Of a DNA stretch of 64,000 nt, positions 13,085 through 21,944 are shown piece after piece (the first letter of the stretch is position 1; each line of letters opens with the position of its first letter). The notes beneath the pieces are model-generated. The model ran no database searches. It had not been told where the DNA came from and saw nothing but the letters and a program-made list of their open reading frames with translations. This DNA comes from Archaeoglobaceae archaeon (lineage in GTDB: Archaea; Halobacteriota; Archaeoglobi; Archaeoglobales; Archaeoglobaceae): the NCBI GenBank assembly GCA_027064525.1, contig JAMOPJ010000038.1, positions 1 through 64,000 on the forward strand, read 5' to 3'. The translations under genes were made by a program, and so were the position numbers.

Positions 13085-13849
13085 ATGATAGAGGTCAAAA
13101 GCTTAGAGTTCGAATATGATTCCTTTTGCGTTCGAGTTTCGTTCGACGTTAAGGAGGGTGAGGTTCTGACGTTGCTCGGGCCAAACGGAAGCGGAAAGAC
13201 AACGATATTAAAGTGCATATACGGATTGCTAAGACCGAAGGGATGCGTTCTTATCGATGGAAAGGACTTCCATGAGATCCCAATTAAGGAAAGGGCCAAG
13301 GTTGTAGGTTACGTCCCCCAAACTCACAACCCTCCGTTTCCTTATTCCGTTTTGGATGTCGTCGTTATGGGAATCACACCCCAGCTCGGACTGTTCGAAG
13401 TTCCAAAAAAAGAGCATTACGAGAAAGCTTTGGAGAAGTTGAGGTTGTTGGGAATAGAGGATCTGAAGAACAGACCATACACTCAGCTCAGTGGAGGTCA
13501 ACTCCAACTCGTTTTGATTGCCCGTGCACTCGTTCAGGAACCGAAAATATTGCTCTTAGACGAACCGACGGCCCACTTGGATTTCAAGAATCAGGTGCAG
13601 ATACTCGACATCGTCAGAAAGTTGACGAGATCAGAAGGTATATCGGCGATAATGACTCTGCACGATCCGAATTTAGCCTCCCTCTACTCTGACAGAATAG
13701 CACTGATAAAGGATGGCTCGATCGTCGCGATAGGTAAGCCGGAGGATGTAATAAGGGAAGATCTGCTTGAGGAGGTTTACGAGATACCCATACGAACTTT
13801 CAAGCTCAACGGTTACAGATTCATCCTACCAGCCTGCCATCCTTCATGA
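13085..13849 (+). CDS. FecE/BtuD-type ABC transporter ATPase, no permease nearby
   Basis: 254 residues with the Walker A box LLGPNGSGKTT, Q-loop VPQTHNP, signature LSGGQLQLVLIARAL (a GGQ form usual in iron-siderophore/cobalamin importers), Walker B LLLDEPT and the H-loop TLHDPN. It is intact, but no FecB/FecCD genes are next to it. Its 3' end overlaps the 3' end of the convergent importer ATPase by 29 bp. Iron-chelate or corrinoid import is the family expectation. The partner must be elsewhere. Confidence 0.85.
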   Translation: MIEVKSLEFEYDSFCVRVSFDVKEGEVLTLLGPNGSGKTTILKCIYGLLRPKGCVLIDGKDFHEIPIKERAKVVGYVPQTHNPPFPYSVLDVVVMGITPQLGLFEVPKKEHYEKALEKLRLLGIEDLKNRPYTQLSGGQLQLVLIARALVQEPKILLLDEPTAHLDFKNQVQILDIVRKLTRSEGISAIMTLHDPNLASLYSDRIALIKDGSIVAIGKPEDVIREDLLEEVYEIPIRTFKLNGYRFILPACHPS

Positions 13850-14507
13850 TAAGGATCCTATCCGCTACGACCCTCGCTAGCTCCAGATCGTGGGTTATGA
13901 AGAGGTAAGACATTCCAAGCTTCCTCTGCAGATCCATCAGCAGTCTAACGATCGAAGCTTGAGTTGATAGGTCGAGCATCGATGTGGGCTCATCGCATAC
14001 TATGAACTTCGGATTCAAAGTCAAAGCCCTTGCAATAACAGCCCTCTGCAACTCTCCACCACTCAATTCATATGGATAACGGGATAAGTGCTCCTCCTTA
14101 AGCCCCACAGCCCTTATAAGTTCGAGAACCTTGTCCTCCTCTTCAGATCTATTGCAGAGCTTGTGGATTCTCAAAGGCTCCGCAATGCTGTCGTATATCC
14201 TCCACCTTGGATCCAAAGCTTCATCCGGATGTTGTGGAATCAACTGCATCTTCATCCTGATTTTCCTCAACTCCCTTCCCCTAAGCTTGGTCAGATCGAT
14301 CCCATCGAAGATAACCCTGCCCTCATCTGGTCTGATCAGCATCAGCAGAATCCTACCGAGCGTCGATTTACCACTACCGCTCTCTCCAACCAGAGCGACC
14401 GTCTCTTCCTCTTCGATCTTTATATTCACGCCATCGACAGCTATGATTGTCTTGCCGCTAAATATTCCCGACTTAAAGATCTTTCTGAGCCCCACTCCTT
14501 CAATCAT
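13821..14507 (-). CDS. ABC ATPase of nickel/oligopeptide importer (NikE/OppF-like)
   Basis: 228 residues: Walker A VGESGSGKSTLG, Q-loop LIPQHPDEALDP, signature LSGGELQRAVIARAL, Walker B FIVCDEPTSMLD, H-loop ITHDLELA. It ends soon after the D-loop/H-loop region and lacks the oligopeptide C-terminal extension seen in its partner, which is common for NikE-type subunits. It overlaps the upstream ATPase gene by 8 nt. Last gene of the importer operon. Confidence 0.9.
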   Translation of the reverse strand: MIEGVGLRKIFKSGIFSGKTIIAVDGVNIKIEEEETVALVGESGSGKSTLGRILLMLIRPDEGRVIFDGIDLTKLRGRELRKIRMKMQLIPQHPDEALDPRWRIYDSIAEPLRIHKLCNRSEEEDKVLELIRAVGLKEEHLSRYPYELSGGELQRAVIARALTLNPKFIVCDEPTSMLDLSTQASIVRLLMDLQRKLGMSYLFITHDLELARVVADRILIMKDGRLVG

Positions 14508-15411
14508 GCAGCCAACACCTTACAGATCTCCCGTTCAAGTTGAATAGGGGAGGTTCCCTCCTACATCTCTCGCTCGCGAATTCGCACCTCTCCCTGAACC
14601 TGCATCCGCTGGGAGGATTCATCATGCTCGGCTGGAATCCCCTTATCGGCTTGAGCCCTCTCGAAGGCAAAGAATCGAGCAATCCCTTTGAGTAGGGATG
14701 TAGTGGTTCGTTGAAGAACTCTTTTGCCGGAGAGACTTCGACTATCTTACCGCAGTACATAACAGCAATTCTGTCAGCAAGCTTTTCGGCAAAGTTCAGA
14801 TCGTGAGTAATTATCAACATGGTTCTATCTTCGATTCTCCTAAAAAGCCCCACTACCTGAGCTCTTTTGGATGCATCCAAGCCCTTCGTCGGCTCATCCG
14901 CAATTATTAGCTCTGGACTTGTTGAGATTCCCATAGCAACCAAAACTCTCTGCCTCATCCCACCGCTAAACTGGTGAGGGTAGTCTTTTGCACGGTTTCT
15001 CCCAATCCCAAGGAAATCGAAGATCCTGAGAACTTTTGCAAAAGCCGATTTCTTATCAAAGCCAAGATGTTCGATCATAGGCTCCGCAGATTGAAATCCA
15101 ACCGTCAAAACGGGATTGAGCGAGGATTGACTCTGCGGAATCCAAGCGATTTTTCTGCCTCTTATTCTTCTCATCTCTTCTTCACTAAGCTCAAGCAGAT
15201 TCTTACCGTTAAAAACGATTTTTCCGCTGATTTCAGCGTTTTTTGGAAGTAATCTTAGGATGGAAATAGCTAGAACTGACTTTCCGCTCCCACTTTCTCC
15301 GATAAGCGTAAATCTCTCCCCTTTGTGGACCTCCAAATCCACACCATCGACGGCTTTAACTATTCCAAGATCGGTTTTGAAGTACACTTTAAGGTTCTCA
15401 ATCTTGAGCAT
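14500..15411 (-). CDS. ABC ATPase of nickel/oligopeptide importer (NikD/OppD-like)
   Basis: 303 residues with Walker A IGESGSGKSV (Gly38-Ser45), Q-loop WIPQSQSSLNP, signature FSGGMRQRVLVAMG, Walker B LIIADEPTKGLD and H-loop ITHDLNFA. The C-terminal ~60 residues hold the oligopeptide-type extension with clustered cysteines (CRFRERC, ERC, RCW), which can carry an iron-sulfur centre in related proteins. It begins after a 127-bp gap containing a NikR-like operator and TATA box, so the ATPase pair probably has its own metal-controlled promoter besides readthrough from the permeases. Confidence 0.9.
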   Translation of the reverse strand: MLKIENLKVYFKTDLGIVKAVDGVDLEVHKGERFTLIGESGSGKSVLAISILRLLPKNAEISGKIVFNGKNLLELSEEEMRRIRGRKIAWIPQSQSSLNPVLTVGFQSAEPMIEHLGFDKKSAFAKVLRIFDFLGIGRNRAKDYPHQFSGGMRQRVLVAMGISTSPELIIADEPTKGLDASKRAQVVGLFRRIEDRTMLIITHDLNFAEKLADRIAVMYCGKIVEVSPAKEFFNEPLHPYSKGLLDSLPSRGLKPIRGFQPSMMNPPSGCRFRERCEFASERCRREPPLFNLNGRSVRCWLHD

Positions 15412-15459
15412 GTTACCACCTTGTTACCCTATTGCAGAATGGTAACATGATTTATAACA
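15409..15459 (-). promoter_or_regulatory. Promoter with NikR-like operator ahead of importer ATPases
   Basis: TTGTTAC-N14-GTAACAT (15421-15447) matches the published NikR-type arrangement GTGTTAC-N13/14-GTAACAC known from Geobacter and predicted in related taxa (from memory). A further GTTACC copy at 15412-15417 makes an alternative perfect 9-bp inverted repeat, CATGTTACC/GGTAACATG (15409-15417 with 15441-15449). On the minus strand TTATAAAT (15452-15459) is a good TATA box, placing the start of transcription inside the operator: a layout for repression. Sequence is seen, regulator identity inferred. Confidence 0.55.
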
Positions 15460-15538
15460 GTTTATCGCGCAATTGTCGTAATATGCTATAATAATAGCAT
15501 TTTAATGCTTAACTATTGAGTTAGCTGTCCTTACAGCT

Positions 15539-16411
15539 TCAGTATTCCAATGTCCTCTTCTCCAAAACGTCTCTCAATCCTTCTCCCAATAGGTTGAAGC
15601 CAAGTACTGACAGAGCTATGAACAAACCCGGAAAGAACGTTATCCAAGGTGCTGTCGTTATGTAATTCTTGCCAGAGTTGAGAATCTGCCCCCATTCAGG
15701 CGTTGGTGGCTGAATTCCTAAGCCCAAAAAGCCCAAGCTTGCGATGGTCATAATGACATTTCCCATGTTGAGCGTTGCGAGCACGATTATCGGCCCGATC
15801 GCATTTGGAATCACATGTCTCAGCAAAATGTATGAATCCCTAGCTCCTATAGCCTTTGCACAGAGAACGAATTCTTTCTCCTTCAGTGAGAGCACTATAC
15901 CTCTCGTAATCCTTGCATAGCTTACCCAGTTGGTTATAACTACAGCCAAGATTACGTTCCAAGTTGACACCCCATAAGCTACGCAGAATATTCCAACTAA
16001 AGCGATGTTAAATACAAGCTCTGGAATGGCCAAAAACACGTCGATAATCCTTCCGATTATATCATCAATTATCCCGCCGAAGTATCCGCTTACCGCACCG
16101 ATGAGACAACCTATCGCCATCGAAATTAGAGAGATCGTCATAGCAACGAATAAAGATGTCCTAGCTCCGTGAACTACCCTAGAAAACAGATCCCTTCCCA
16201 ATTGATCCGTGCCGAAAGGGTGCTCTAAGCTCGGAGGTTTTAGTCTCTCAGCTAAGTTCGTCTTATAGGGATCGTCTGCAATTACCGGAGCCAGTAGACC
16301 AAGCATGGCTATAAACAGAATTATTCCAAATCCGATTGTGCATAGATTGTTTTTGAATATCCTGCTTCTGAACACTTCCGAGGCAAATGCGAACTCCATT
16401 CTAATCACCAT
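15539..16411 (-). CDS. Importer permease C (NikC/DppC-like)
   Basis: 290 residues, inner-membrane permease with about six helices. N-terminal helix IGFGIILFIAMLGLLAP, then the DppC-type periplasmic segment (PSLEHPFGTDQLGRDLFSR), and the cytoplasmic EAA loop AKAIGARDSYILLRHVIPNA followed by GLGIQPPTPEWG, both diagnostic of the peptide/nickel family. It overlaps the upstream permease gene by 11 nt. It pairs with that gene product to form the membrane channel. Confidence 0.93.
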   Translation of the reverse strand: MVIRMEFAFASEVFRSRIFKNNLCTIGFGIILFIAMLGLLAPVIADDPYKTNLAERLKPPSLEHPFGTDQLGRDLFSRVVHGARTSLFVAMTISLISMAIGCLIGAVSGYFGGIIDDIIGRIIDVFLAIPELVFNIALVGIFCVAYGVSTWNVILAVVITNWVSYARITRGIVLSLKEKEFVLCAKAIGARDSYILLRHVIPNAIGPIIVLATLNMGNVIMTIASLGFLGLGIQPPTPEWGQILNSGKNYITTAPWITFFPGLFIALSVLGFNLLGEGLRDVLEKRTLEY

Positions 16412-17336
16412 ACCTGATACGAGGATCGATCACTGCGTAGAGGATATCCACAACCAAGTTTACGATGACGAACAACACTCCAGATATGAACACCAAAGCT
16501 TGAACCACGGGAAAATCCCTCTTAAACACGGATTCAACAAGCAATGAACCTAAGCCCGGCCATGAGAAGACCACTTCAACCATAATCGAGCCGACGATCA
16601 GGTGGCTTATCGACAGCGAGAAGTACGTTATTATCGGTATTAGAGCATTCCTCAACGCATGTCTAAGGACTACAATTCTTTCGGGCAAACCCTTTGCTCT
16701 TGCGGTGATTACATAATCCTGCGAAAGAGCCTCAAGCAAACAACTCCGCACGAACCTTGTCTTTATGGCCATGAAGGAAAAGCTCCAAGTAAGGACTGGC
16801 AAAATCAGATGCTCAATTCCTCCATAGCCGAATGCTGGCAAAAGACGTAGCTGAACTGAGAAAATCCAGATCAAGATTAAACCAAGCCAGAAACTTGGAA
16901 TACTTATGCCGAGCAATGAGAATATTCTGCAAAAATGATCCACAGCCCTGTCCTTATAAATTGCTGAGATTATCCCCAAAAGCATGGCAAAGGCTATGGA
17001 TATTGCAAACGTCGTGAAGAAAAGCTGAGCTGAAGCTGGAAGTCGCTCCAGTATCAAATCCATAACCGGCTTGTCTTCAGTCCAAGATTTTCCAAAGTCG
17101 CCTCTTACGGCTTTGGAGAGCCAGTCGAGGTATTGAACTAACATCGGTCTGTCCAATCCCATCTCCATCCTTATCTTCTTGACCATCTCTTGAGTCGGCT
17201 CGACAGCGTATCTAGCCTCAACTATGAACTCAGCTGGATCTCCAGGGAATATGTAGAGTAGGGAAAAAGAAATAATAGATATTCCCAAAAGGGTTGGAAC
17301 GATTTGGAGCAATCTCCTCGCTATGTATCTAAGCAT
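16401..17336 (-). CDS. Importer permease B (NikB/DppB-like)
   Basis: 311 residues. Starts with the family N-terminus RRLLQIVPTLLGISIISFSL, contains the DppB loop MGLDRPMLVQYLDWL and RGDFGKSW, and the EAA loop ARAKGLPERIVVLRHALRNA followed by VEVVFSWPGLG. Six membrane helices. The start overlaps the end of the binding-protein gene upstream by 8 nt. Confidence 0.93.
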   Translation of the reverse strand: MLRYIARRLLQIVPTLLGISIISFSLLYIFPGDPAEFIVEARYAVEPTQEMVKKIRMEMGLDRPMLVQYLDWLSKAVRGDFGKSWTEDKPVMDLILERLPASAQLFFTTFAISIAFAMLLGIISAIYKDRAVDHFCRIFSLLGISIPSFWLGLILIWIFSVQLRLLPAFGYGGIEHLILPVLTWSFSFMAIKTRFVRSCLLEALSQDYVITARAKGLPERIVVLRHALRNALIPIITYFSLSISHLIVGSIMVEVVFSWPGLGSLLVESVFKRDFPVVQALVFISGVLFVIVNLVVDILYAVIDPRIRYGD

Positions 17337-18870
17337 ATGCCCTCACGTATGCGGAGTAGAACCTTGGCTCCGAGTATTCAAACTTAACACCTTCAACGTT
17401 TGGTTTCTCAACGACTGCAACTACTTCGTAATAGAGGGGTGCAACCCCAGCTTCTTCGTAGAGGGCTTTGTAAAATTCGACGAACTTCTGCCTCCTCTTA
17501 GTTTTGTCGAACTCCTTAACGACTGCCATCGCCTTCTCGGTGACGTTGTCACTCATGTAAACCTTCCAAGGCTTTTCAGGTGGCAGAAACCTCCAGAATA
17601 TCCTCATGTAAAAAGTCCTCTCCGAGCCACCTATGTAGTATATTCTAAGATCGTAATCTCCCGAACGAACCCTATCCCTGTAAACTCCCCTTTCGAGGGT
17701 TTCAAGTTTTACGTTCAACCCCACATCTTTCAGCTGTTGCTGGACGAGTTGAGCAACGAGAACCTGATCGCTCTGAGAGTTATCTACTATGAATTTGATC
17801 TCACCGACATCCTTACCACTCACGATATCCCTGGCTTTCTCCAGATAGTATTCGTATCTTACATTTGCCTCAGCCATTCCCGGTGCTTCTGGAGGAAACA
17901 TACCATCCCAAGCTGGTCTAACCCATTCATCGAATATCTTAGCAATTTCATCTCTGTTTATCGCGTAGTTTACCGCCCATCTCATCTCGACGTCGTTGAA
18001 AGGCTCCTTCTTGTAGTTGAACGCCACTATCCACGTATACGGTATGTTCTTCGTCAGAACTTTGAAGCCATCTCTCTTCAACGCACTCAACTGATTTCTC
18101 GGGGTGTAATCGTATCCTCCATGGTAGTTGTCTATAAGAACGTCAACCTCTCCGCTCCTCAAAGCGAGAACCCTCGTATCTTCATCCGGAATAACCTTAA
18201 CGATCAGCTTCTTGATCTTTGGCTCCAAACCCGTTCGTTCGAACCAGTATCTGTTTGGTTCGAGCACTGTATATTGATTTTCAACGTATTCGACGACCTT
18301 AAACGGCCCGGTTCCTATCAAATTAACGAGCGTTCCGTTTGGATCTCCCTCAGGCTCAACGGATTTTGGAGACATAACACCCAAGCCGTGAACATCCTGC
18401 AGTTTGGCGAAATTCAACACCCATGCCTCATCGAAGTTGAAAGCGACAGTGTAGTCGTCGATAACCTCAACGCTCTTGGGAGCTACGGAATGCTTTCTGA
18501 CAACGAGTATGTCGTATGTAAACTTAACCGCATTAGCATCCATCTCAGTTCCGTCCGAGAACAGAATCCCCTTTCTAAGCTCGAACACGATCCTCTTTCC
18601 ATCGTTCTCGATCTCCCACTTCTTCGCCAAAGACGGAACGAAATCATCCGAGCTTAGATCGTATTCTATGAGTCTTTCAAGCACGCAGAATTTCGGAATC
18701 GATCTGTCGATCTTCGCTGGATCTCCTCTCAGTTTTAAATCGTCGGCGTAACCTATAACCAGTGTGTCTTTGAACGTTTCCTTCTTCGTGCAACCTAACA
18801 GACTCATTCCCAAAAATGTTGAAATTCCAATTCCAGTGAACTTTACAAAGTCCCTTCTCGTCAGCCTCAA
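17329..18870 (-). CDS. Substrate-binding lipoprotein of nickel/peptide importer (second copy)
   Basis: 513 residues from TTG 18870 with GAGAGGTG just upstream. N-terminus: twin-arginine motif TRRDFVKFTG, hydrophobic helix, then lipobox LLGC with Cys27, so a Tat-exported lipoprotein anchored outside the membrane. The rest is a type-5 (SBP_bac_5) fold: KKWEIENDGKRIVFELRKG, FTYDILV, GTGPFKVVEY, DEDTRVLALRSGEVDV, FNYKKEPFNDVEMR and a C-terminal GVAPLYYEV. It is a close paralogue of the next gene upstream. Nickel (or a nickel chelate) is suggested by the operator and the DUF4198 gene; peptides remain possible. Confidence 0.9.
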   Translation of the reverse strand: MRLTRRDFVKFTGIGISTFLGMSLLGCTKKETFKDTLVIGYADDLKLRGDPAKIDRSIPKFCVLERLIEYDLSSDDFVPSLAKKWEIENDGKRIVFELRKGILFSDGTEMDANAVKFTYDILVVRKHSVAPKSVEVIDDYTVAFNFDEAWVLNFAKLQDVHGLGVMSPKSVEPEGDPNGTLVNLIGTGPFKVVEYVENQYTVLEPNRYWFERTGLEPKIKKLIVKVIPDEDTRVLALRSGEVDVLIDNYHGGYDYTPRNQLSALKRDGFKVLTKNIPYTWIVAFNYKKEPFNDVEMRWAVNYAINRDEIAKIFDEWVRPAWDGMFPPEAPGMAEANVRYEYYLEKARDIVSGKDVGEIKFIVDNSQSDQVLVAQLVQQQLKDVGLNVKLETLERGVYRDRVRSGDYDLRIYYIGGSERTFYMRIFWRFLPPEKPWKVYMSDNVTEKAMAVVKEFDKTKRRQKFVEFYKALYEEAGVAPLYYEVVAVVEKPNVEGVKFEYSEPRFYSAYVRAYA

Positions 18871-18873
18871 CGC

Positions 18874-20460
18874 TCACACCTCTCTCACTCCGACTGCGTA
18901 GAACAGAGGTTCTCCAAACGGTATTCCGTTCGGGTAGTGGAACATATCCTCGTAGCTTATGTCAACGTTCTTGCTAGCTACTGTCGTCATTATGTCGAAG
19001 TACAGCGGGACAACTCCGTGTTCTTCGTGAATAGCTCTGTAGAACTCTATTAGGTACTGCTTCCTCTTCTCCTTGTCGAATTCGGTTAGTATCTTCTCGC
19101 ACAGATCTCCGGTTCTCTCACTTACGTAAGCCTTCCACTTCCTTGCCGGATGGAACCTCCAGAACATTCTCAAATAGAATCTCCTGTCAGTTCCGCCGAT
19201 GTAATACAATCTCATGTCGTATTCACCGGCATCTCTCTTCTGCTTGTATGCACCCGTTTCGAGGATCTCAAGATTGACGTTGATACCTATATCCTTGAGC
19301 TGTTGCTGAATTAGCTGGCATACGAGGATCTGGTCGCTCTGAGCCTTATCGACGATCATATTTACCTCAATGCCAGCACATCCTAACTCATCGATAATCT
19401 GCTTGGCCTTCTCTGGATTATATTCGTACGTAACTCCAGCCTCCTTTACGCCCGGAGCATCCTCTATGAACAAAGTTCTTGCTGGCAGAACTTGGTTATC
19501 GAATATCTTTACGACCTCATCCCTGTTTACTGCTAAATCGACAGCTTCCCTCATTTTAACGTCGTTGAAGGGTTCCTTCTTGTAGTTGAAGGCTATGATC
19601 CAGGTGAGAGGAATTACCCTCTTGAAGACCTTGTAGCCTTCTCTCTGCAAAAGTCCCAGCTGATTTCTTGGTGTGTAATCACTTCCACCGTGAGAATAAT
19701 CTGAGATTGCATCAACCTCACCACTCTTCAAGGCCATTACCCTTGTATCCTCATCCTTTATGAATCTGACAACGAAACGCTTGAACTTCGGTTTTATGCC
19801 AAATCGCTCATACCAGAACTCGTTTGGAGCATAGACAGCATACTGCTCCTCCTTGTAATCCACAACCTTGAACGCTCCGGTTCCTATCGGCAGAACGAAC
19901 TCACCCTTCGGATCACCTTCGGGCCTAACGCTCTTCGGAGACATTATGCTCATGTGGAATTCGGCCATCTTCGCCAAGTTAAAGAACATCGCATCCTTGA
20001 ACGTTATCGATACCGTGTAGTCATCCACAATTTCGGCGGATTCGAATGTTTCAGAGCCCAAAGGGTGGTTGATCTTGAGCCACTCGACCGTGAATTTCAC
20101 CGCCTTAGCGTCAAACTCGCTCCCATCCGAGAATTTTACACCTTTGTTCAGCTCGAAGGTTAGAACCTTGCCATCCTGCTCTACCTCCCATTTCTTTGCG
20201 AGACACGGAACGTAGTCGTCGTTCTTCAGATCGTATTCCACAAGTCTTTCTAGAACGTGTATCTTCGGGAAGAAGCCTATTCCCCACTTTCCCCCTCTAA
20301 GTCTGTGATCCTTTCCGTAACCAAGCACGAACTCAGCCTTATAGGTTGGAGTGGTCGGCGTTGCCGTTGGTGTGGCAATCGGTGTCTTCTTGGCACAGCC
20401 CAAAAGAAGTGTGGCAGAACCCAAAGTCATATACTTCAGAAAATCTCGCCTCGTAATCAT
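18874..20460 (-). CDS. Substrate-binding lipoprotein of nickel/peptide importer (first copy)
   Basis: 528 residues. N-terminus MITRRDFLKYMTLGS with lipobox LLLGC (Cys22), again a Tat lipoprotein, followed by a Thr/Pro linker (TPIATPTATPTTPTYK) typical of archaeal cell-surface lipoproteins. The body is SBP_bac_5: AKKWEVEQDGKVLTFELNKG, IGTGAFKVVDY, DEDTRVMALKSGEVDA, FNYKKEPFNDVKMREAV. It shares long identical stretches with the following gene, so the pair arose by tandem duplication. The two copies may bind different chelates or give higher capacity. Only 3 bp separate its stop from the next start. Confidence 0.9.
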   Translation of the reverse strand: MITRRDFLKYMTLGSATLLLGCAKKTPIATPTATPTTPTYKAEFVLGYGKDHRLRGGKWGIGFFPKIHVLERLVEYDLKNDDYVPCLAKKWEVEQDGKVLTFELNKGVKFSDGSEFDAKAVKFTVEWLKINHPLGSETFESAEIVDDYTVSITFKDAMFFNLAKMAEFHMSIMSPKSVRPEGDPKGEFVLPIGTGAFKVVDYKEEQYAVYAPNEFWYERFGIKPKFKRFVVRFIKDEDTRVMALKSGEVDAISDYSHGGSDYTPRNQLGLLQREGYKVFKRVIPLTWIIAFNYKKEPFNDVKMREAVDLAVNRDEVVKIFDNQVLPARTLFIEDAPGVKEAGVTYEYNPEKAKQIIDELGCAGIEVNMIVDKAQSDQILVCQLIQQQLKDIGINVNLEILETGAYKQKRDAGEYDMRLYYIGGTDRRFYLRMFWRFHPARKWKAYVSERTGDLCEKILTEFDKEKRKQYLIEFYRAIHEEHGVVPLYFDIMTTVASKNVDISYEDMFHYPNGIPFGEPLFYAVGVREV

Positions 20461-20465
20461 TTAAA

Positions 20466-21110
20466 TCACCTCAAAACCGTTAAGGTTGTTACCATACTCC
20501 TCTTTACATAGCCAACCTCATCTACAAACCTTGCAGATAGAACGTTAACACCCTTGGCGAGCTTAACGACATCTCCAGCATTGAACTCAAAGGAGCCTTC
20601 CGAATTCCTCAGCTTGATCTTTCCTTCCACGGGCTTGCCTCTAAACAGTATCTCAACTACAACCTCGTCATCGATGTTGTCAGGCATAAGTTCAAACTCT
20701 AAGCCTAAAGGTCTCACGTCATCGCTCAAATAAGCCTTGGCAAAACCCAATATGTGCCTGACCTCCTCAACGGAGTATTTCGGAGGAACGCTTCTTCCAA
20801 AAATCCATTTTCCATCGCTGGTGAGAGTATAGATACCCTTGTCGTATTCTACGGCCAAAGCATCCGCCTCTTCGAACTCCAAGAATATTCCACCCTTCGC
20901 TGAGGAATCCTTATCCATGCCAACAACAACGGGCTTTGTAAATCCATTGGCAACTGCAAAAGCCCTCGTTATGCTCAAAGGATCGAGCTTACCATCTATT
21001 TCTGGAAAATGACCCCATTTCAGATACGCTCTGCCATCTCCAAGCTCTATCCAAGCTTCGTGATTTACGATTTTAATTAGATTCTCAATTTTATCACTAT
21101 TTGCTAACAT
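20466..21110 (-). CDS. DUF4198-like protein, first gene of the importer operon
   Basis: 214 residues. The beginning NHEAWIELGDGRAYLKWGHF (His17, His34) and the C-terminal Ig-like domain (VVVEILFRGKPVEGKI, GDVVKLAKGVNVLSARF) match DUF4198 proteins, which are commonly linked to nickel/cobalt transporters (NikK-like). Most relatives are exported; here no signal peptide is visible from this start, and no better upstream start was found. It lies 5 bp ahead of the binding-protein gene and leads the seven-gene operon. Histidines near the N-terminus suggest metal binding. Function unproven. Confidence 0.65.
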   Translation of the reverse strand: MLANSDKIENLIKIVNHEAWIELGDGRAYLKWGHFPEIDGKLDPLSITRAFAVANGFTKPVVVGMDKDSSAKGGIFLEFEEADALAVEYDKGIYTLTSDGKWIFGRSVPPKYSVEEVRHILGFAKAYLSDDVRPLGLEFELMPDNIDDEVVVEILFRGKPVEGKIKLRNSEGSFEFNAGDVVKLAKGVNVLSARFVDEVGYVKRSMVTTLTVLR

Positions 21111-21203: not shown

Positions 21204-21944
21204 ATGAACGTAAAGGCTCTGATCAAGGAATACTGGGATTCAAGGGGAGAGAGCTACGACAGATCTCCGGGACACGTTTGTCTCCCTGAAGTTTGGCGAG
21301 CTATTCTAAGGGATGTCTTCAATTCCAATATTAGAATCTTAGATGTCGGAACGGGAACGGGGTTCTTGGCTTTGATATTGGCAGAATTGGGACATGATGT
21401 TGTCGGATTGGACATATCCAAAGCTATGCTGAGAGTTGCGAGAAGGAAGGCTGAGAGAAAGGGTTTGAATATTAAGTTCGTTTTGGGAGATGCAGAAAAT
21501 CTTCCATTCGAAAACGAAAGCTTCGATGCTGTTATCTGCAGACATCTCGTATGGACGCTCCCAAATCCGAACCTCGCACTGGCTGAGTGGGCGAGGGTTG
21601 CGAGGGAGAGGGTTGTAGTTATAGACGGCAAGTGGATGGATACTTCGTTGAGCACGAAGCTGAGGAAGTTCTTCGGCAGAATTCTAATAGGGCTATACGA
21701 GAGGAGGAATCCGTTTAAGCAGTTCCACTATAGAAAAGAGATAAACAAAGCTTTGCCGTTTTACGGTGGAGCTGAGACGGATGTGATGCTCGAAATGTTC
21801 AGATCGATTGGTTTAAAACCGAAGGTTAGAGATCTCATGTGGATCAAAGAATTGCAGACGAAGGACATGCCATTCGTTTACAGGATCGCTTGGGTTAAAA
21901 GGGACTATTTCATGATCGAGGGTTTTAAAAGTCAGAAAGGGTAG
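21204..21944 (+). CDS. Class I SAM-dependent methyltransferase (UbiE/Methyltransf_11-like)
   Basis: 246 residues. Motif I DVGTGTG at 47-53, the acidic end of strand 2 in VVGLDISKAM, motif II/III FVLGDAENLPF, and post-motif LPNPNLALAEWARV are all present. The C-terminal ~80 residues are a basic, aromatic-rich extension. Divergent from the importer operon with about 90 bp between. Its substrate is unknown; a link to metal-chelate or cofactor metabolism is only a guess from position. Confidence 0.85.
   Translation: MNVKALIKEYWDSRGESYDRSPGHVCLPEVWRAILRDVFNSNIRILDVGTGTGFLALILAELGHDVVGLDISKAMLRVARRKAERKGLNIKFVLGDAENLPFENESFDAVICRHLVWTLPNPNLALAEWARVARERVVVIDGKWMDTSLSTKLRKFFGRILIGLYERRNPFKQFHYRKEINKALPFYGGAETDVMLEMFRSIGLKPKVRDLMWIKELQTKDMPFVYRIAWVKRDYFMIEGFKSQKG

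Follow-up and report, generated by a model that had tools for sequence, protein, structure and literature searches.

In this heat-loving archaeon, a 28-bp inverted repeat in front of the two ATPase genes of a probable nickel importer is very probably the operator of the archaeon's own NikR, and nickel-loaded NikR would repress nikDE only. The box lies at positions 15448-15421 of the window, the whole stretch of 64,000 nucleotides that was analysed here. This reading is drawn from the sequence, namely from the box, its position, its conservation, the presence of nikR and the separate unit that the ATPase genes form in relatives.

The importer genes are arranged in the order DUF4198-like gene, two binding proteins, two permeases, a gap of 127 bp and two ATPases:

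13821-14507, minus strand: nikE-like ATPase, overlapping the end of nikD
14500-15411, minus strand: nikD-like ATPase (OppD/NikD family), first gene of the predicted operator-controlled unit
15539-16411, minus strand: permease (permC), NCBIfam Opp2C 'nickel transporter permease' (310 against a cut-off of 300)
16401-17336, minus strand: permease, NCBIfam Opp2B 'nickel ABC transporter permease' (364.9 against a cut-off of 350)
17329-18870, minus strand: second solute-binding protein (SBP_bac_5)
18874-20460, minus strand: first solute-binding protein (SBP_bac_5), closest to the curated NikA model but below its cut-off
20466-21110, minus strand: first gene of the operon, weak DUF4198 match, without an N14 operator upstream

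Both permeases score above the curated nickel-permease cut-offs, as is expected of a NikABCDE/Opp2-type nickel importer, and support nickel as the substrate, which the first-pass annotation had proposed. Among the models, NikE fitted the second ATPase best, and the two binding proteins scored best with NikA. The cut-offs of the E. coli-type NikA-NikE equivalogs (TIGR02294, 02789, 02790, 02770 and 02769) were not reached, with scores of 181 vs 393 for NikA, 180 vs 319 for NikD and 229 vs 333 for NikE. The second binding protein is 88% identical to a binding protein of G012, a genome of another genus, and is missing from the operons of the relatives G001, G002 and G004, so it was likely gained laterally.

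The promoter region of the ATPase pair contains the following elements:

15450-15457, minus strand: TTATAAAT, the TATA-like box for the ATPase pair; a single base separates it from the operator downstream
15421-15448, minus strand: predicted NikR-type operator, ATGTTAC-N14-GTAACAA on the gene strand, kept in relatives
15415-15422, minus strand: AAGGTGGT, the likely ribosome-binding site of nikD
15411-15417, minus strand: third copy of the half-site, GGTAACA (= TGTTACC), over the ribosome-binding site and start codon, found only in the genome of the window (G000)

On the gene strand, TTATAAAT (15457-15450) is followed by the operator (15448-15421), by AAGGTGGT (15422-15415) and by the ATG (15411). 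The ribosome-binding site was assigned from 5-mer counts upstream of the window ORFs, where AGGTG and GGTGA were the commonest 5-mers (55 ORFs). Read on the plus strand, 15421-15448 is TTGTTACCCTATTGCAGAATGGTAACAT, the pair TTGTTAC-N14-GTAACAT that the earlier annotation had described as overlapping the likely transcription start of the ATPase pair. In archaea the distance from the TATA box to the transcription start is usually about 25 bp. With the box at 15457-15450, the start is therefore expected at about 15427-15430, close to 15428 and inside the site, so that both the pair and the overlap hold. The half-sites are two helical turns apart and share 12 of their 14 arm bases with GTGTTAC/GTAACAC. 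In its length and spacer the site agrees with the inverted repeat of 27-28 bp and the spacer of 13 or 14 bp that mark NikR sites. A scan for sigma-70 promoters gave no match, as expected in an archaeon.

The spacing of 14 bp was then considered in other archaeal genomes. A search of 392 genomes of the phylum with the strict pattern GTGTTAC-N13-15-GTAACAC found 10 places against 18 for the reversed control, and hence no enrichment. Seven of the places had the N14 spacing. Two of these were between nikM/cbiM and its ATPase gene (G218 and G350) and one was at the start of the nickel hydrogenase gene frhA (G030), while for the other four no link to nickel genes was found. Because of these three places, the upstream regions of cbiM/nikM genes were examined, with 300 bp for each gene. 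The query protein of this set carries the NCBIfam name cobalt transporter CbiM, and the 32 archaeal loci were the best 30 of those from 48 genomes with a match, together with L145 and L146. When g was varied from 8 to 21 in GTGTTAC-Ng-GTAACAC, the mismatches summed to 113 for g=14, and the remaining 13 spacings gave totals of 147-176. For the 23 non-redundant upstream regions the N14 total was 83, whereas 200 resamplings gave 129.7 +- 3.5 with a minimum of 120. From the cbiM/nikM variants the archaeal consensus GTRWTAC-N14-GTAWYAC was drawn up by eye.

The frhA pair of G030 (L134:3057-3084) is a perfect GTGTTAC-N14-GTAACAC just downstream of a TATA-like stretch at the ORF start, about 150 bp ahead of the part that matches the FrhA model. 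An N14 pair in hdrA of G003 and G004 consists of codons for the conserved HdrA start and was set aside as coding.

The operator lies within the importer gene cluster, and the first-pass annotation had suggested that the ATPases are controlled apart from the binding proteins and permeases. Upstream of the first gene of the operon, at 21110, it had seen no such pair, and we confirm this since the best N14 match there has 6 mismatches in 14 to the archaeal consensus. The corresponding best pairs have 3 mismatches in G001 and 4 in G002 and G004. The pair AAGTTAC-N14-GTAATAA at the first-gene promoter of G001 was not counted because it is missing in the closely related G002. Both of these genomes carry the ATPase pair on another contig than the binding protein and the permeases, with its TATA box and operator retained, so that it forms a transcription unit of its own there. 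The separate control is thus supported by the TATA box of the ATPase pair, by the separate pair of the relatives and by the missing operator at the first gene.

It is possible, though on balance doubtful, that most nikDE transcription is read-through from the upstream promoter and that the role of the internal one is limited to trimming or boosting ATPase expression; the internal operator would then matter less. The permC stop and the nikD start are on the same strand with 127 bp between them, and no terminator was found in this gap. The hairpin that precedes the TATA box (15479-15504) is only moderately more stable than shuffled sequences (z -1.9) and, by eye, is not kept in G003; it is not claimed as a terminator. 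Read-through is opposed by the arrangement in G001 and G002, where the ATPase pair stands elsewhere with its box and TATA sequence, and by the upstream promoter without an operator.

Next to the importer, at 21204-21944 on the plus strand of the window, lies a gene for a class I SAM methyltransferase. Its homologues adjoin the importer in 9 of 13 other genomes examined, in six of them in the direction of the binding protein, and a metallophore-related role is conceivable. At the Nik operon starts of genus g5, in G019 (L097) and G008 (L096), TTAACAT/C-N14-ATATTAC pairs were seen upstream of the methyltransferase gene and downstream of TATA-like boxes. The half-sites of these pairs are reversed relative to the consensus.

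A regulator that could bind the box is encoded in the same genome. The main nikR, on contig C2, codes for a ribbon-helix-helix protein that matches NikR_C with 101.5 bits and exceeds the cut-off of four of the five NCBIfam NikR models. Its closest solved relative is 2bj1, a nickel responsive regulator which we take to be the Pyrococcus horikoshii NikR. All four nickel ligands (H, HxH, C) are kept, so that the nickel site is complete, and the DNA-contacting strand is R-I-G-V-S. This R-G-S pattern corresponds to the Arg-Gly-Ser strand in the NikR of Geobacter uraniireducens. The absence of nikR had been named beforehand as a finding that would speak against the operator, and the gene is present. 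NikR_C was found in 40 of 40 relatives (in G003, which is 81% complete, only as the weak second form), so having the gene is not a discriminating feature. The R-G-S strand was found in 36 of 40 NikR-like proteins; G028 and G037 have R-C-S by eye, and the strand of the G030 and G039 proteins was not parsed by the script.

The genome encodes a second NikR-like protein (L002:1333-1728, contig C33 of G000). It matches NikR_C with 34 bits, has the R-G-S strand and adjoins an ABC-3 metal permease gene. HxH and C are kept, and by eye the first histidine is replaced by glutamate. This protein is possibly a sensor of zinc or another metal. A NikR homologue of Methanothermobacter that adjoins a zinc transporter has likewise been suggested to respond to zinc (PMC3087415). 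If the second protein bound the box, the ATPases would answer to zinc or another metal instead of nickel. We regard this as very unlikely, since weak second NikR_C matches occur in few of the 40 genomes (G000-G004 and G015, grouped by eye from the scores), whereas N14 boxes upstream of cbiM/nikM occur in methanogens and the 10 genomes examined have a single NikR_C match each.

The assignment of the box to the main NikR is consistent with its conservation at nikD. A nikD relative was found in 27 of the 40 genomes searched. In G001, G002 and G003, which belong to the same genus and have a nikD that is 80% identical, the promoter has TTATAAATCGTGTTAC-N14-GTAATAACATG at the same position, and the left arm is exactly GTGTTAC. 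A later scan of named genomes, with the consensus already settled, added an out-of-sample case, the Archaeoglobaceae MAG locus L221 (JAMOMT010000196.1; nikD 73% identical), with GTTATAAATAGTGTTAC-N14-GTAATACCCATG and permC upstream as in the window. Its box, GTGTTAC-N14-GTAATAC, matches the archaeal consensus at all 14 positions. In these four other genomes with the operator the distance to the TATA box is the same as in the window, while the spacer sequence varies. TTAATAC-N14-GTAATAC is present in the permC-nikD gap of G012, in another genus. The box occupies the promoter of a predicted nickel gene and has been kept in relatives, although it is absent from G004, of the same genus, and from G010, both with a nikD that is 75-76% identical.

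From a list of 80 nikD loci, 46 were entered and 44 scored, two being dropped because too little DNA was available upstream; L239 and the loci at the end of the list, most of them from bacteria, were left out. At N14, a pair with no more than one mismatch was present in five of the 44 upstream regions; the 13 other spacings (8 to 21) gave no such pair. Most of the more distant nikD upstream regions have no site, and with up to two mismatches the count was 6 of 44. In 327 upstream regions of the family, five N14 pairs with at most one mismatch were found, four of them nikD promoters, and again none at 13 other spacings. With up to two mismatches there were eight, at five nikD genes, one cdhA and two others. 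These 327 regions have mechanical ORF starts, overlap in part and come from stretches mostly chosen for nik/cdh genes or motif matches, with those promoters included.

The extra GTTACC copy of the first-pass annotation exists, but the second register that it was said to offer was not borne out. The copy (15417-15411 on the gene strand) stands 11 bp from the copy at 15422-15428 and extends into the start codon of nikD. It is missing from G001, G002, G003 and L221 and so is a small insertion peculiar to G000. Its spacing to the far arm is N25, so that the third half-site is neither conserved nor correctly spaced, and it coincides with the ribosome-binding site and the start codon.

The strict dyad TGTTAC-N14-GTAACA occurs once in the 1.89-Mb genome, where about 0.03 copies are expected, and about 0.001 are expected in the window. 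When three mismatches were allowed, the window gave two matches, both from a single site that was counted on either strand; shuffles gave 3.7, hence no excess. The loose pattern GTTAC-N10-24-GTAAC was at chance level in the genome (14 vs 13). The remaining isolated sites in G000-G003 that had one mismatch or none fell in coding sequence or were not shared among the genomes, and were discarded. That the inverted repeat is a product of chance or belongs to translation, through the AAGGTGGT ribosome-binding site and the AT-rich leader, with no regulator involved, is about as unlikely as control by the second NikR-like protein, because against the chance-level loose counts and the third copy over the ribosome-binding site stand the rarity of the strict dyad, a TATA distance that is fixed while the spacer differs, and an N14 spacing that stands out in two gene sets.

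We therefore return to NikR as the regulator of nikDE. We infer that NikR binds the box, that nickel is the signal and repression the effect, and that the permease operon escapes. At high cell nickel, Ni-loaded NikR would occupy both half-sites, which follow the TATA box directly and cover the expected transcription start, and initiation of the nikDE transcript would be stopped. The binding-protein and permease genes, with their own promoter that has no operator, would be outside NikR control. As the upstream operon has no operator, nickel would hold back the importer through the supply of its ATPases. The finding provides a precise predicted site of 28 bp and an archaeal consensus, and an importer that nickel appears to control solely through its ATPases.

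The first-pass annotation had suggested a search for further copies of the motif, for example at hydrogenase or CO dehydrogenase genes. No second strict copy was found, but a weaker N14 pair exists upstream of cdhA, which encodes a subunit of the nickel CO dehydrogenase (TIGR00314, 1328.9 bits vs 781.3):

L206:1388-1415 (contig C8 of G000): weaker N14 NikR-like pair upstream of cdhA, conserved in G000-G004

When the five same-genus genomes are aligned, each has GTGTTAA/C-N14-ATARYAY in identical columns, and a conserved box, TTTATAATC or in G000 TATATAATC, follows about 35 bp downstream. Similar pairs are found upstream of cdhA in G010 and G015. For 15 cdhA genes of 13 genomes, the N14 mismatch total was 44 vs 55-70 elsewhere, and 6 of the 15 had at most two mismatches. 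At the cdhA genes of G014 and G018, and at the closer of the copies in G008 and in G019, there were 4 or 5 mismatches and hence no site. Since the pair lies upstream of the promoter, its position suggests a role other than blocking. We tentatively consider, as a rather unlikely extension, that the NikR of this lineage works in two ways, with nickel-dependent repression of the importer ATPases only and an action at cdhA, perhaps activation, the latter being a guess from the position. Carbon monoxide dehydrogenase, which is central to the Archaeoglobaceae, would thereby have a candidate link to the nickel supply.

The arms and the spacing of the present site resemble those of the delta-proteobacterial NikR operators, for which the consensus GTGTTAC-[N13/14]-GTAACAC was independently derived in Geobacter and Desulfovibrio (PMC545781). 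Those sites control nikMNQO/nikKMLQO operons or hydAB (PMC545781), whereas the present site is at the ATPase pair of an Opp/Nik-type importer. The E. coli operator of nikABCDE, GTATGA-N16-TCATAC, is likewise a 28-bp inverted repeat at the promoter of a nickel importer (PMC7055735). However, it has another half-site and controls the whole operon from nikA, and here only the ATPase pair would be concerned. For methanogens, NikR sites of nikMNQO operons were predicted in a 2006 study (Rodionov, as cited in PMC10617489). There, as here, the NikR is archaeal, and the N14 pairs of the present analysis also lie upstream of cbiM/nikM genes, but nikMNQO is an ECF-type transporter and the present one an ABC importer with solute-binding proteins. 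In the literature searched, no experiment on an archaeal NikR operator was found. The half-sites of the Helicobacter pylori NikR differ from those described here. This NikR is both a repressor and an activator (PMC9860126, PMC4464171). A parallel might be seen in the pairing of the operator at the importer promoter with the additional site upstream of the promoter of cdhA, a nickel-enzyme gene; an action at cdhA would then be likened to the activation of urease. Taken together, the site is a predicted archaeal case of a known type of switch, with an unusual target, the ATPases only.
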